In this document: one piece after another, positions 22,039 through 50,827 of the stretch
Position numbering within the stretch: the first letter of the stretch is position 1
How the letters are laid out: the number at the start of each line of letters is the position of its first letter
Origin: Gammaproteobacteria bacterium
Lineage (GTDB): Bacteria; Pseudomonadota; Gammaproteobacteria; Nevskiales; Nevskiaceae
NCBI GenBank assembly: GCA_026398875.1
Contig: JAPLSB010000017.1
Location: 310,001 to 374,000 of the forward strand
Length of the DNA stretch: 64,000 bases
Direction of reading: 5' to 3'
Notes under the pieces: generated by a model
Seen by the model: the letters and a program-made list of their open reading frames with translations, nothing else
What the model was told of the DNA's origin: nothing
Databases searched by the model: none
Made by a program: the position numbers and the translations under genes

Positions 22039-24235
<2,197 letters not shown>

Positions 24236-24619
24236 TCAGCCGAGTTGGCGCGCCAGCCAGAAGCCGAGCGCGCAGGCCGCAAGGCTCAAGCCCAGGTTTG
24301 CAGCGACGTTGGCGAAGGCCGCTGCCGCATTGCCGTCCCGCCACAGCAGCAGGGTTTCGATCGAGAACGCCGAGAACGTCGTGAAGCCACCGAGAATGCC
24401 GGTGGTCAGGCCCAGCCGCAGCGTGTCCGACAGCGTACCGGGCCGGCTGATGGCGAACGCCGTGATCAGCCCCATCGCGAAACCGCCGACGACGTTGACC
24501 GCGAGCGTGCCCCACGGAAAGCCGGGGGCGGCACTGCGCAACATCGTCGAAAGCCAGTAGCGGGCCACCGAACCAAACGCGCCGCCGGCAGCCACGGCCA
24601 GCACGACAGCGCCATTCAT
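24236..24619 (-). CDS. crcB: Fluoride channel (Fluc/CrcB)
   Basis: A 127-residue small membrane protein with four helices that forms dual-topology fluoride channels. Signatures are GGAFGSVARYW near the N-terminus, NVVGGFAMG, and the pore motif GGFTTFSAFSIET. Its ATG overlaps the vapC stop by four bases, so it is translationally coupled to a toxin-antitoxin pair. No fluoride riboswitch precedes it; the upstream sequence is vapC coding. Normally crcB follows rarA directly. Confidence 0.96.
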   Translation of the reverse strand: MNGAVVLAVAAGGAFGSVARYWLSTMLRSAAPGFPWGTLAVNVVGGFAMGLITAFAISRPGTLSDTLRLGLTTGILGGFTTFSAFSIETLLLWRDGNAAAAFANVAANLGLSLAACALGFWLARQLG

Positions 24620-25020
24620 GCCGCGTGCGCCCGCATGACCTTGAGGCCGAGCCCGCGCTCCATGACATCGAAATCGCGATCCCGATGAAGCAGCGTGAAG
24701 CCGTGCTCGATGCAGAACGTGCCGATCAACAGATCAATGGTTTTTCGCACCGTGACACCCTGGGCACGCAGCTTCCGGTCGTTCTCGGCACTCCGCCGGG
24801 CGATCTCGAAGCCGGCCATCTCGTGGCTTGGCAGCGCGGCCATCAAGCCGGCCACGCGGCGGAACTCGCGGTCATCGCGTATGCCCTGCAGCACTTCGGT
24901 CAGGATCAGGTCGCCGGTGGCGACAGTGTCGCGGTCGAGCAGGCGATCAAGCAGATCGACCTGTGGCCCGTCGATACCGTTCAGGAAGTCGATCCAGACC
25001 GAGCTGTCGGCGACGATCAC
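24616..25020 (-). CDS. vapC: VapC-type PIN-domain ribonuclease toxin
   Basis: A 134-residue PIN-domain endoribonuclease. Acidic metal-binding residues are in MIVADSSVWIDF (Asp5), TEVLQGI (Glu ~42), TIDLLIGTFCIEHG (Asp ~95) and the late HRDRDFD. Length is typical for VapC. ATGA overlap with vapB upstream and with crcB downstream gives a three-gene coupled unit. The target is unknown; VapCs usually cleave tRNA or rRNA loops. Confidence 0.93.
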   Translation of the reverse strand: MIVADSSVWIDFLNGIDGPQVDLLDRLLDRDTVATGDLILTEVLQGIRDDREFRRVAGLMAALPSHEMAGFEIARRSAENDRKLRAQGVTVRKTIDLLIGTFCIEHGFTLLHRDRDFDVMERGLGLKVMRAHAA

Positions 25021-25226
25021 CGCGACGGCTCATGGACCGAAAGACGGCTGACGTCGAGATTGCCGTCCCACACCACCTTGCCGCGCAAGCTGCGCAATTC
25101 CTGCTGACGCTGCATGCGAACGAGCAAGCGCAAGCCATCCTCGACCGCCTGCTTCTTGGTGCGCGCGCCGGTGGCAGCCATTGCTTCGGCCATCAAGTCG
25201 TCGTCGATGTCGATATTGGTTCGCAT
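25017..25226 (-). CDS. vapB: VapB-type antitoxin (type II toxin-antitoxin)
   Basis: A 69-residue antitoxin with an N-terminal ribbon-helix-helix DNA-binding segment (MRTNIDIDDDLMAEAMAATG, TKKQAVEDGLRLLV) and a C-terminal toxin-binding tail (LRGKVVWDGNLDVSRL), the DUF2191 pattern. AAGGTGG lies just before the ATG at 25226, which is preferred over an upstream in-frame start inside the repeat. It overlaps vapC by four bases and likely represses its own promoter. Confidence 0.93.
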   Translation of the reverse strand: MRTNIDIDDDLMAEAMAATGARTKKQAVEDGLRLLVRMQRQQELRSLRGKVVWDGNLDVSRLSVHEPSR

Positions 25227-25282
25227 GGCGCCACCTTTTGTGCATGAATTTCGAGAAGCATACACATTCGCGAGGGCAAGGC

Positions 25283-25496
25283 CAAAGCGATTCGCACGCG
25301 GAGAACGCAAAGAACGCGGAGAACGGCAAAAGCGAGAAAAGCCTTTGGCAAACGGCGAAAAGCCAGGGCTGAAAAGCTATTGAAAGCGGTTCCTTCGTGT
25401 CCTTGCTTTTGCCTTCCTTCGTGCCTTTGTGCTCCGGAGCTTCTGACGTTCTGGTTTCGCTTTTCTCTGCGTACTCCGCGTTCTCTGCGTGAGCCT
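25283..25496. repeat. Diverged inverted repeat, copy 3 (ACGCGGAGAACGCAAAG-type arms)
   Basis: The 285-base gap between rarA and vapB is mainly an imperfect inverted repeat. The left arm has CACGCGGAGAACGCAAAGAA then CGCGGAGAACGG. The right arm has the related CTGCGTACTCCGCGTTCTCT then GCGTGAGCC. The core resembles copies 1 and 2 but with GCGGAG or GCAGAG in place of GCAAAG. No small gene is recognised in it. The vapB promoter must lie at its left end. Confidence 0.75.
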
Positions 25497-25511
25497 GGCC
25501 GTTGACGACCT

Positions 25512-26858
25512 TCAGCGGGACGGCTTCCCGCGCGCCACGGCCCGCAATTGCGCCAGCTGCTCGCCGATCTTGATTTCCAGGCCTCGGGGCTTCGGGCTGT
25601 AGAACTCGGTACCAAGCAGCGCATCGGGCAGGAACTGCTGGCCGGCGGCGACACCGTCTTCCTCGTCGTGGTCGTAGCGATAACCGTCGCCATAGCCGAG
25701 ACCCTTCATCAACTTGGTCGGCGCATTGCGGATGTGCATCGGCACGTCCAGCGAGCCGTGCTTCTCGACTGCCGCTCGAACGTTCTTGTAGCCGCGGTAG
25801 ATCGCATTGCTTTTCGGCGCCACCGACAGGAACACCACCGCCTGCGCCAGCGCCAGTTCCCCTTCCGGGCTGCCGAGCCGTTCGTAGCTGTCCCAGGCAT
25901 CCAGGCACATGCGCTGCGCACGCGGGTCGGCAAGGCCGATGTCCTCGACACTCATCCGCAGCAGACGCCGCGCGAGATAGCCGGGATCGACACCGCCATC
26001 CAGCATTCGCGCGAACCAGTACAGCGCCGCGTCCGGATCGCTGCCGCGCACGGACTTGTGAAGCGCGCTGATCTGGTCGTAGAAGTTTTCGCCCTGCTTG
26101 TCGAATCGGCGCAATCCCTTGCCGATCAACTGGTCAAGCAGCGCATCGTCCTGCCGGCCGGCCGCGCGGCTCAGCTCGAAGGCGGTTTCCAGCAGGATCA
26201 GCGCCCGGCGCGCATCGCCGTCGGCGGTATCGGCAATCCGCGACAGCCACCGCTCGGGCAGCGCGTCGGCTGCAGCGCCCATGCCGCGCTCGGGGTCGGT
26301 CAGCGCGCGCTGCAGCAGATCGGTGATCGCGGCGGCATCGAGCGAGCGCAGCACGAACACGCGCAGCCGGCTCAGCAGCGCGCCGTTGAGCTCGAAGCTC
26401 GGGTTCTCGGTGGTTGCGCCAATCAGCGTGACGGTGCCGTCCTCGACGTACGGCAGCAGCGCGTCCTGCTGGCTCTTGTTGAAGCGGTGGATCTCGTCGA
26501 TGAAGAGGATCGTGCGGCGCGAGCCACCGCCCGCTTGCAGCACCGCGCGCTGCGGCGCCTTGGCGTTGCGCGCCATCTGCGCGTTGACCATCGCTTCGCG
26601 GATGTCCTTGACCCCGGCCATCACCGCAGAGAGCGTCAGGAATTGGGCGTCCGAGTGGTTGGCGATCAGCCGCGCCAGCGTGGTCTTGCCGACGCCGGGT
26701 GGCCCCCAGAACACGATCGACGGAATGCGCCCGGATTCCATCGCCACCCGCAGTGGCGAGCCGGGCCCCAGCACATGCTGCTGACCGACGACCTCATCGA
26801 GCGTCCGCGGCCGCATCCGTTCGGCCAGCGGCGCATCGGGGTTCACCGGTTGCGACAC
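25512..26858 (-). CDS. rarA: Replication-associated recombination protein A (AAA+ ATPase)
   Basis: A 448-residue clamp-loader-like ATPase (MgsA/RarA) acting at stalled replication forks. Walker A is GPPGVGKTT (~residue 52), Walker B region FIDEIHRFNKSQQD, sensor 1 IGATTENPSFELN, and a C-terminal tetramerisation domain ends near the stop. It is 10 bases downstream of lolA, keeping the ftsK-lolA-rarA-serS order of gammaproteobacteria. Confidence 0.97.
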   Translation of the reverse strand: MSQPVNPDAPLAERMRPRTLDEVVGQQHVLGPGSPLRVAMESGRIPSIVFWGPPGVGKTTLARLIANHSDAQFLTLSAVMAGVKDIREAMVNAQMARNAKAPQRAVLQAGGGSRRTILFIDEIHRFNKSQQDALLPYVEDGTVTLIGATTENPSFELNGALLSRLRVFVLRSLDAAAITDLLQRALTDPERGMGAAADALPERWLSRIADTADGDARRALILLETAFELSRAAGRQDDALLDQLIGKGLRRFDKQGENFYDQISALHKSVRGSDPDAALYWFARMLDGGVDPGYLARRLLRMSVEDIGLADPRAQRMCLDAWDSYERLGSPEGELALAQAVVFLSVAPKSNAIYRGYKNVRAAVEKHGSLDVPMHIRNAPTKLMKGLGYGDGYRYDHDEEDGVAAGQQFLPDALLGTEFYSPKPRGLEIKIGEQLAQLRAVARGKPSR

Positions 26859-26867
26859 ACCGGGCCG

Positions 26868-27554
26868 TCAGGGGCGCGAGGCCGCGCCACCGGCACTCGG
26901 TGCGCTGTCGCCATCAACGACCTCGGTGCCCTTCGGCGGCGTGAACTGGAACTGCGCCGCATCGATCGGCTTGTTGGTCGCCACGGTGCTGAACTTCACT
27001 TCCGAGGAACCGCCAATCGGGTCCTGGAAGCGCATGCGCAGCGGTGCGCCGGCCTTGTCGATGGACAGCTCGATCGACTTGAAATCGCTGTCCTTCGCTT
27101 TCGGCAGCAGGCGCACCACGCGGGCATCGCCATCGCTGCCACCGTCCTGCACGACAAACGCATCGGTCAGCCCACCGCGCTGCGACAGCAGCGCTGCCGG
27201 CGTGCCGGCCAGCGCCGACTTCGCGTTACGCACCGTAGCTTGGTTCAAATCGGGATCGAAGGCCCAGAGCTTGGTGCCGTCGCAGATCGACAGCTGCTCG
27301 TACGGCTTTTCGTAGGCCCAGCGGAAGCGGCCGATGTCGGACTTCGCACCGGCGGCTGGCCGCGACAGCAGGAAGCGGCCGCTGGAACGCGCGGTGACCG
27401 TACCGCGTTCGTCGGTCTGGGTCTGATCGAAGCGGGCATCGAAGGTTTGCACGCCATCGACGAAGCGCTTCAGGGTGTCCTGCGCGGAATCGGCTTGCAC
27501 CACCGGCATGACGCAGAGCGGGATCGACAACAGCAGCTTCGACAATCGGGACAT
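26868..27554 (-). CDS. lolA: Outer-membrane lipoprotein carrier protein
   Basis: A 228-residue periplasmic chaperone that shuttles lipoproteins from LolCDE to LolB. The signal peptide runs from MSRLSKLLLSIPL to about QADSAQ. The mature part carries the LolA pattern (TFDARFDQTQTDERG, SGRFLLSRP, FRWAYEKPYEQL, YDPDLNQ-like FDPDLNQATV). The ATG at 27554 is chosen because it creates the signal peptide. A terminator precedes it, so lolA-rarA has its own promoter. Confidence 0.95.
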   Translation of the reverse strand: MSRLSKLLLSIPLCVMPVVQADSAQDTLKRFVDGVQTFDARFDQTQTDERGTVTARSSGRFLLSRPAAGAKSDIGRFRWAYEKPYEQLSICDGTKLWAFDPDLNQATVRNAKSALAGTPAALLSQRGGLTDAFVVQDGGSDGDARVVRLLPKAKDSDFKSIELSIDKAGAPLRMRFQDPIGGSSEVKFSTVATNKPIDAAQFQFTPPKGTEVVDGDSAPSAGGAASRP

Positions 27555-27657
27555 GGTGTCGGCAACCGGAGCGCCGTTGCGGCGCGAAGTGCACAAATTA
27601 TCGCTTGGATACTGAAGCGCCGCTGAGCACCGAATCGCCGCGCCAGGGGCGACAACG

Positions 27658-50642: not shown

Positions 50643-50827
50643 CGTGTCTCCTGCGGTGTTCGATGTTCGTCAGGAACCCTTGAGCCTAATTCACAGCAAC
50701 GGGAACCATAACGACGCAGGGTGTGCAGGCCCGCCCCGTAGCGGGAAGCCCAAATGCATTGTGCGGTGCCCACTTGAGACCTCCGTCTCAAGGTCGAAGA
50801 CGGATGACGGCACAGGCGGGAGACACC
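50643..50827 (+). ncRNA. ssrS: 6S RNA
   Basis: A ~185-nt RNA that mimics an open promoter and sequesters sigma-70 RNA polymerase. The ends pair: GTGTCTCC (50644-50651) with GGAGACAC (50819-50826). Internal stems include the CCCGTAGCGGG hairpin and TTGAGAC/GTCTCAA around 50774-50792. The central asymmetric bubble begins near GAGCCTAATTCACAG. It lies between zapA and the cyclo-ligase gene, its conserved place. Boundaries are estimated from the closing stem. Confidence 0.92.

Follow-up and report, generated by a model that had tools for sequence, protein, structure and literature searches.

The window, a stretch of 64,000 nucleotides from a genome of the genus Nevskia (Gammaproteobacteria, Nevskiales), carries the gene row lolA-rarA-vapB-vapC-crcB-serS on its minus strand. 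The lolA gene (positions 26868-27596; TIGR00547, E 1.8e-57) lies upstream of rarA, also called mgsA (25512-26858; MgsA_C, PF12002, E 7.7e-64), the ancestral upstream neighbour of crcB. Between rarA and crcB lie vapB (25017-25226), which encodes a VapB-type antitoxin of 69 amino acids (VapB_antitoxin, PF09957, E 1.5e-15), and vapC (24616-25020), which starts with GTG and encodes a PIN-domain toxin of 134 amino acids (PIN, PF01850, E 9.7e-12; NCBIfam TA_toxin_VapC, NF047959, E 5.4e-46). The crcB gene (24236-24619) encodes a Fluc fluoride channel of 127 amino acids, in which the CRCB domain (PF02537, E 5.6e-28) spans the full model (1-103 of 103); the product also exceeds the TIGR00494 cut-off (101.7 bits against 80.45) and aligns to solved Fluc channels (E 3.3e-17). 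It was the only crcB copy found in the window genome, a 4.15-Mb assembly of 24 contigs. Its downstream neighbour is serS (22895-24178; TIGR00414, E 7.3e-157). On the minus strand, 285 nt separate rarA from vapB and 57 nt separate crcB from serS, and the three genes in between are joined by 4-nt overlaps, GTGA at 25020-25017 (vapB/vapC) and ATGA at 24619-24616 (vapC/crcB). The original prediction had described ATGA at both joints, which is correct for vapC/crcB and has to be amended to GTGA for vapB/vapC, since vapC starts with GTG.

The cognate antitoxin gene lies directly 5' of vapC, as is required of a type II VapBC toxin-antitoxin (TA) module. Residues D5, E42 and D96 and the D114/D116 region of VapC align with VapC11 and VapC15, whose structures have been solved, and we take them to be the conserved acidic positions of PIN toxins. 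PADLOC gave no match for either VapB or VapC. Two PF09957 antitoxins were found in the window genome.

The rarA-vapB gap holds the palindrome TGTGTATG-N12-CATGCACA (25239-25266, minus strand), a putative VapBC operator that ends 12 nt before vapB; the hexamer TATGCT at 25262-25257, inside the palindrome, was picked out by eye as a possible -10. The gap also holds a dispersed repeat element (25280-25511) with inverted arms at 25295-25331 and 25455-25491, which, counting the query, matches 64 segments of its own genome. This element is made up of ACGCGGAGAACGC-like units with inverted arms and of CACGAAGG-like units, and a similar one was seen by eye in the same gap of a related genome (G016, locus L067). 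Between crcB and serS, a hairpin followed by a T-rich stretch (24205-24225, minus strand) is terminator-like or may be part of a serS promoter; a stretch resembling it was seen by eye before serS in nine of the nine genomes of the clade described below. Elsewhere in the window, a 6S RNA (RF00013, 88.6 bits) was detected at 50645-50826.

Occurrence and history of vapBC between rarA and crcB

The gene row was compared across 18 Nevskia genomes, the window genome (G000) among them. Seven of these (G000, G002, G005, G010, G014, G015 and G016) carry rarA-vapB-vapC-crcB-serS with both 4-nt overlaps; vapB/vapC is joined by GTGA in all seven, and vapC/crcB by ATGA in six and by GTGA in G015. The vapC genes of the carriers have a mean pairwise dS of about 0.5, and the recurrence of both overlaps in six other, diverged genomes is more than chance. 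In one carrier, G016, the first PIN aspartate of VapC is a histidine (D5H), with frame and overlaps kept, and this toxin is probably inactive. In G011 vapBC is absent and crcB overlaps rarA directly by ATGA, and in G008 vapC is absent and crcB is kept without an overlapping partner. G008 (L072) has, between rarA and crcB, a divergent VapB-like gene (53% identity; PF09957, E 2.7e-9), at which the operator-type palindrome is absent, and an 83-amino-acid ORF without a Pfam match where vapC would be. This vapBC was not found at crcB in the remaining nine genomes of the genus, including G007, in which neither crcB nor a close rarA was found. Absences in single genomes carry some risk, since fragmentation affects many of the genus genomes and those with names were assembled from metagenomes.

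Outside the genus, this vapBC was absent from 44 crcB loci of the order, and the VapC relatives found beyond the seven carriers in 85 genomes of the order were at most 59% identical. Family HMMs specific to this TA family were run on 120 crcB loci, 60 from the order (genus included) and the best-scoring 60 from the class, the latter covered to 1.6 kb upstream of crcB and loci L193, L196 and L243 being shortened by contig ends; they matched only the six other carriers and the VapB-like gene of G008. The presence of the module in seven of 18 genomes, and its absence from the nested G011 and from the 44 loci outside the genus, supports the proposal that vapBC was inserted between rarA and crcB, and relatives with rarA-crcB and no vapBC do exist (G011 and rarA-crcB loci outside the genus).

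Other TA pairs were noted in the genus. In G003 (L064) an unrelated pair, consisting of a PIN toxin and a MazE-type antitoxin, lies on the opposite strand in a 3.2-kb rarA-crcB gap; it is a second, independent TA at this junction. A second VapBC, with a VapC about 34% identical, was seen beside the same opposite-strand gene in G011 (L127), G000 (L129) and G005 (L130); L132 gave no match in this neighbour comparison.

The overlap at the start of crcB was also found where vapBC is absent. In 22 of the 44 order loci outside the genus, rarA lies upstream of crcB in the fetched stretch, and, counting candidate starts and not annotated ones, an in-frame ATG or GTG of crcB sits at exactly -4 relative to the stop of rarA in 13 of the 22 (15 if TTG is admitted), and an ATG at -1 in two. 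In the class sample, which is the best-scoring 60 rows and not a random draw (59 genomes; crcB was present in 121 of 151), the end of rarA lies no more than 1 kb upstream of crcB in 35 loci. A candidate ATG or GTG at -4 was present in 14 of these 35 and absent from 21, so the overlap is common, not universal; the upstream ORF was absent in L223, L234 and L243. These rarA/crcB overlaps in relatives indicate that vapBC very likely stepped into a 4-nt junction that existed before it entered and, on the gene orders compared, vapC has replaced rarA as the overlap partner of crcB. The idea that vapBC itself created the weld to crcB is contradicted by the same overlaps. Four-nucleotide overlaps are common in prokaryotes, and PMC6728339 reports strict translational coupling for 13 of 14 overlapping pairs tested in H. 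volcanii and E. coli.

In a DNA tree of lolA, rarA and serS with two Nevskia outgroups, the seven carriers, G008 and G011 formed one clade (100/100), and the same nine-genome clade was obtained in the rarA protein tree of 31 rows. G011 was sister to G000 in the DNA tree (100/99), and forcing the seven carriers into one clade was rejected (p-AU 2.75e-7). The vapC tree contained two carrier groups, matching the species groups. The simplest history compatible with these trees would be one insertion of vapBC in the ancestor of the nine-genome clade, followed by removal of vapBC in G011, loss of vapC in G008 and the aspartate change in G016. In G011, identity to the other eight genomes is 50-64% over the last 42 columns of rarA and 56-84% (65, 73 and 75% to G000) over the first 225 columns of crcB; just past these columns, crcB is 92-93% identical to that of G000. 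Carriers, too, differ from one another in the 5' part of crcB (71-79% between G000 and G016, 72-83% between G000 and G005), forcing G000 and G011 together in the divergent tract was not rejected (p-AU 0.197), and the crcB protein tree placed G011 outside the other eight with an SH-aLRT of only 88. Loss of vapBC from G011 by recombination with an allele of an empty-site donor is hinted at, and only hinted at, by this pattern.

Expression signals and the fluoride riboswitch

A scan of positions 24100-25600 for sigma70-like promoters, its coverage being limited to consensus-type sites, gave none (0.2 expected in shuffles), and none at vapB either. Three terminator-like sites were found in the region, against 1.6 expected, one of them just inside crcB and one after it. 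A promoter for crcB inside vapC was considered and rejected: no sigma70-like site was present, and synonymous change did not fall toward the 3' end of vapC (0.49 and 0.36 in the last two 15-codon windows, with the lowest value, 0.22, in the first window). By these computed measures, neither a promoter-like site nor a 3' synonymous drop marks a separate start just before crcB, which agrees with the original prediction. The vapB start pairs strongly with the anti-SD in every one of the seven carriers (-5.8 to -7.2 kcal/mol), and the pairing at crcB is weaker than in shuffles in six of the seven; G005 is the exception, with pairing before crcB slightly better than in shuffles (-6.1 against -5.4).

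Palindromes similar to that of the window precede vapB in each of the seven carriers, and the same holds for 21 of the 25 other homologous loci that were scored; by eye, the palindrome was also present in three further loci, L097, L098 and L099. The homologous loci that bear it range from other Nevskiales to rhizobia. TATGAT or a variant of it, often seen by eye in the left half of the palindrome, resembles a -10 hexamer. With up to two mismatches allowed, the window genome gave no further site, and a palindrome of the same form was absent at the second VapB of this genome (L031), which was outside the 25 loci scored. Because an operator-like palindrome is conserved before vapB, it is plausible that VapBC autorepresses a vapB-vapC-crcB unit. 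In other vapBC operons, VapB-VapC complexes bind inverted repeats in their own operator, as described in PMC3920265.

The fluoride riboswitch (RF01734) was found neither in the window nor elsewhere in its genome, and a weak copy below the gathering cut-off was ruled out for 24200-25600, where nothing appeared at E values up to 1. The original prediction had allowed a promoter or fluoride riboswitch before crcB only inside vapC; the lack of a detected riboswitch stands, and the restriction of the promoter to vapC does not, as a promoter at vapB or read-through from rarA could serve. In a search with stricter filters, RF01734 was likewise found in none of the nine clade genomes, in neither G007 nor G012 and in none of the 22 genomes outside the genus with rarA upstream of crcB; in the class, it was found once in 20 loci checked of the best-scoring 60. 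It does lie upstream of crcB in seven other Nevskia (G001, G003, G004, G006, G009, G013 and G017). The crcB genes of G001, G003, G004, G009 and G012 form a distant branch, and those of G006, G013 and G017 are nearer to the clade's own. Downstream of distant-type crcB in G009 (L070), G012 (L040) and G004 (L073), a DUF190 gene (PF02641 confirmed for the G009 copy) and a UspA-like gene were recognised by eye. The crcB branches and the aptamer-free rarA-crcB genomes do not support a direct swap of riboswitch for TA module as such; the nine-genome clade probably descends from a riboswitch-free rarA/crcB state.

Models for the control of crcB

The reading that we favour, with moderate confidence, is that one insertion at the rarA/crcB junction put vapC in the place of rarA and that the supply of crcB follows VapBC derepression, not fluoride. 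A type II VapBC module would have entered the lolA-rarA-crcB-serS row once, where the crcB start overlapped the rarA stop, and ribosomes terminating on vapC, now in the position of rarA, would restart on crcB. The genes vapB, vapC and crcB would form one mRNA from a promoter repressed by VapBC, possibly with read-through from lolA-rarA, and crcB, for which a clear ribosome-binding site is mostly lacking, would be translated by termination-reinitiation from vapC. The supply of the channel would then follow VapBC derepression, as when stress leads to breakdown of the antitoxin, and would not depend on the sensing of fluoride. The gene families, the overlaps, the insertion and its distribution, the purifying selection, the operator-like palindrome and the lack of a detected fluoride riboswitch are established from the sequence. 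Given the palindrome before vapB and the weak anti-SD pairing at crcB, expression of crcB probably requires transcription under VapBC control as well as ribosomes that have finished vapC. The vapB promoter would not be needed if enough transcripts from lolA-rarA read through into crcB. Against this reading stand also the persistence of crcB without a partner in G008, the retention of the arrangement with D5H in G016, the anti-SD pairing in G005, the 21 of 35 class loci that offer no ATG or GTG at -4 and the negative promoter scan at vapB.

A passive insertion is a possible, clearly less probable explanation. In that case a self-serving vapBC would have parked where it did no polar harm, crcB would be expressed mainly by read-through from lolA-rarA with no meaningful role for VapBC, and the 4-nt overlap would only preserve the coupling that rarA gave crcB. 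The overlap at the crcB start is indeed older than vapBC, only 55 nt separate rarA from vapB in G002, G010, G014 and G015, the coding strand of this gap shows no terminator-like site in the window, and crcB survives the loss of vapBC (G011) and of vapC (G008). However, a purely selfish module is expected to be less stable than the vapBC seen here. The mean dN/dS among the seven carriers is 0.069 for vapB and 0.102 for vapC, compared with 0.082 for rarA, 0.089 for serS, 0.146 for crcB and 0.176 for lolA; by this measure, vapB and vapC are under purifying selection with values like those of rarA and serS. These values, the agreement of the vapC-tree groups with the species groups and the retention of the palindrome in every carrier argue against a passive insertion, and vapBC at this junction is real and stably kept.

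A more far-reaching proposal is that VapBC autorepression and the hand-over of ribosomes from vapC to crcB now regulate the sole crcB found, where siblings have a riboswitch, so that channel dose would be tied to antitoxin breakdown as a general stress response, and that the module of G016, its toxin catalytically damaged, may have been retained for its regulatory function. This proposal is tentative and, in our judgement, rather unlikely. It was also suggested originally that the tie to crcB protects the toxin from loss, which would work through the polar loss of an important channel. The low dN/dS of vapB and vapC would agree with this; nevertheless it is contradicted, and very improbable, as among the nine clade genomes one lacks vapBC (G011), one lacks vapC (G008) and one lacks the first PIN aspartate (G016), with crcB kept and its frame intact throughout. 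Also very improbable is a joint arrival of vapBC and crcB as a cassette that displaced a resident crcB, for although the other Nevskia crcB genes are only 39-57% identical and lie in other branches, so that crcB replacement does occur in the genus, the crcB group of the clade includes G011, which lacks vapBC, and sits among rarA-linked crcB genes of other genera of the family, and crcB, rarA and serS were not found in the flanks of 37 loci with homologous VapC elsewhere (19 + 10 + 8; flanks of 1.5 to 5 kb where the contig allows). On these 37 loci, vapBC-crcB as a wider travelling unit was ruled out.

Relation to known systems

It has long been asked why chromosomes retain TA modules. The nine-genome clade offers a TA module under housekeeping-like purifying selection together with natural comparisons: G011, from which it was removed, G008, which lost the toxin, and G016, with a changed active site. 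With riboswitch-bearing siblings at hand, the locus lends itself to testing whether a TA operator governs a gene that is unrelated to it and physiologically relevant; if the preferred model is true, the channel may be set by the TA switch and not by fluoride.

The riboswitch-controlled crcB genes of the sibling Nevskia belong to the same channel family as the one described here, and rarA is upstream in the same fetched locus in six of those seven genomes. Unlike them, the nine-genome clade has no detected aptamer, and in the carriers vapBC fills the stretch before crcB. The rarA-crcB pair of relatives has the same rarA and serS neighbours and the same kind of overlap at the crcB start, but its upstream partner of crcB is rarA, whereas in the Nevskia carriers it is vapC. 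Autoregulated vapBC operons, as described in PMC3920265, likewise have vapB before vapC, inverted repeats at the promoter and a PIN toxin; the Nevskia locus differs in that a third, unrelated gene overlaps vapC. No literature linking vapBC to crcB was found in a search that reached a minority of subscription papers.

The nearest parallel in organisation is the six-gene ccdAB-ST operon of the Salmonella plasmid pSLT. According to PMC5065971, this type II TA is co-transcribed with downstream genes, its complexes influence those genes (RsdB falls when the TA promoter or the locus is deleted), and the effect of the locus is independent of the toxicity of the toxin. The ccdAB-ST system, as given there, is plasmid-borne, belongs to the CcdAB family, has one nucleotide between the toxin gene and the next and is followed by plasmid genes, whereas the Nevskia locus is chromosomal, belongs to the VapBC family, has a 4-nt overlap and is followed by a fluoride channel gene. 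The parts of the Nevskia locus are ordinary and a TA operon that extends into influenced downstream genes has already been published (ccdAB); it is the junction that is unusual. As far as gene anatomy goes, the Nevskia locus fits a ccdAB-ST-like TA operon with a downstream cargo gene.
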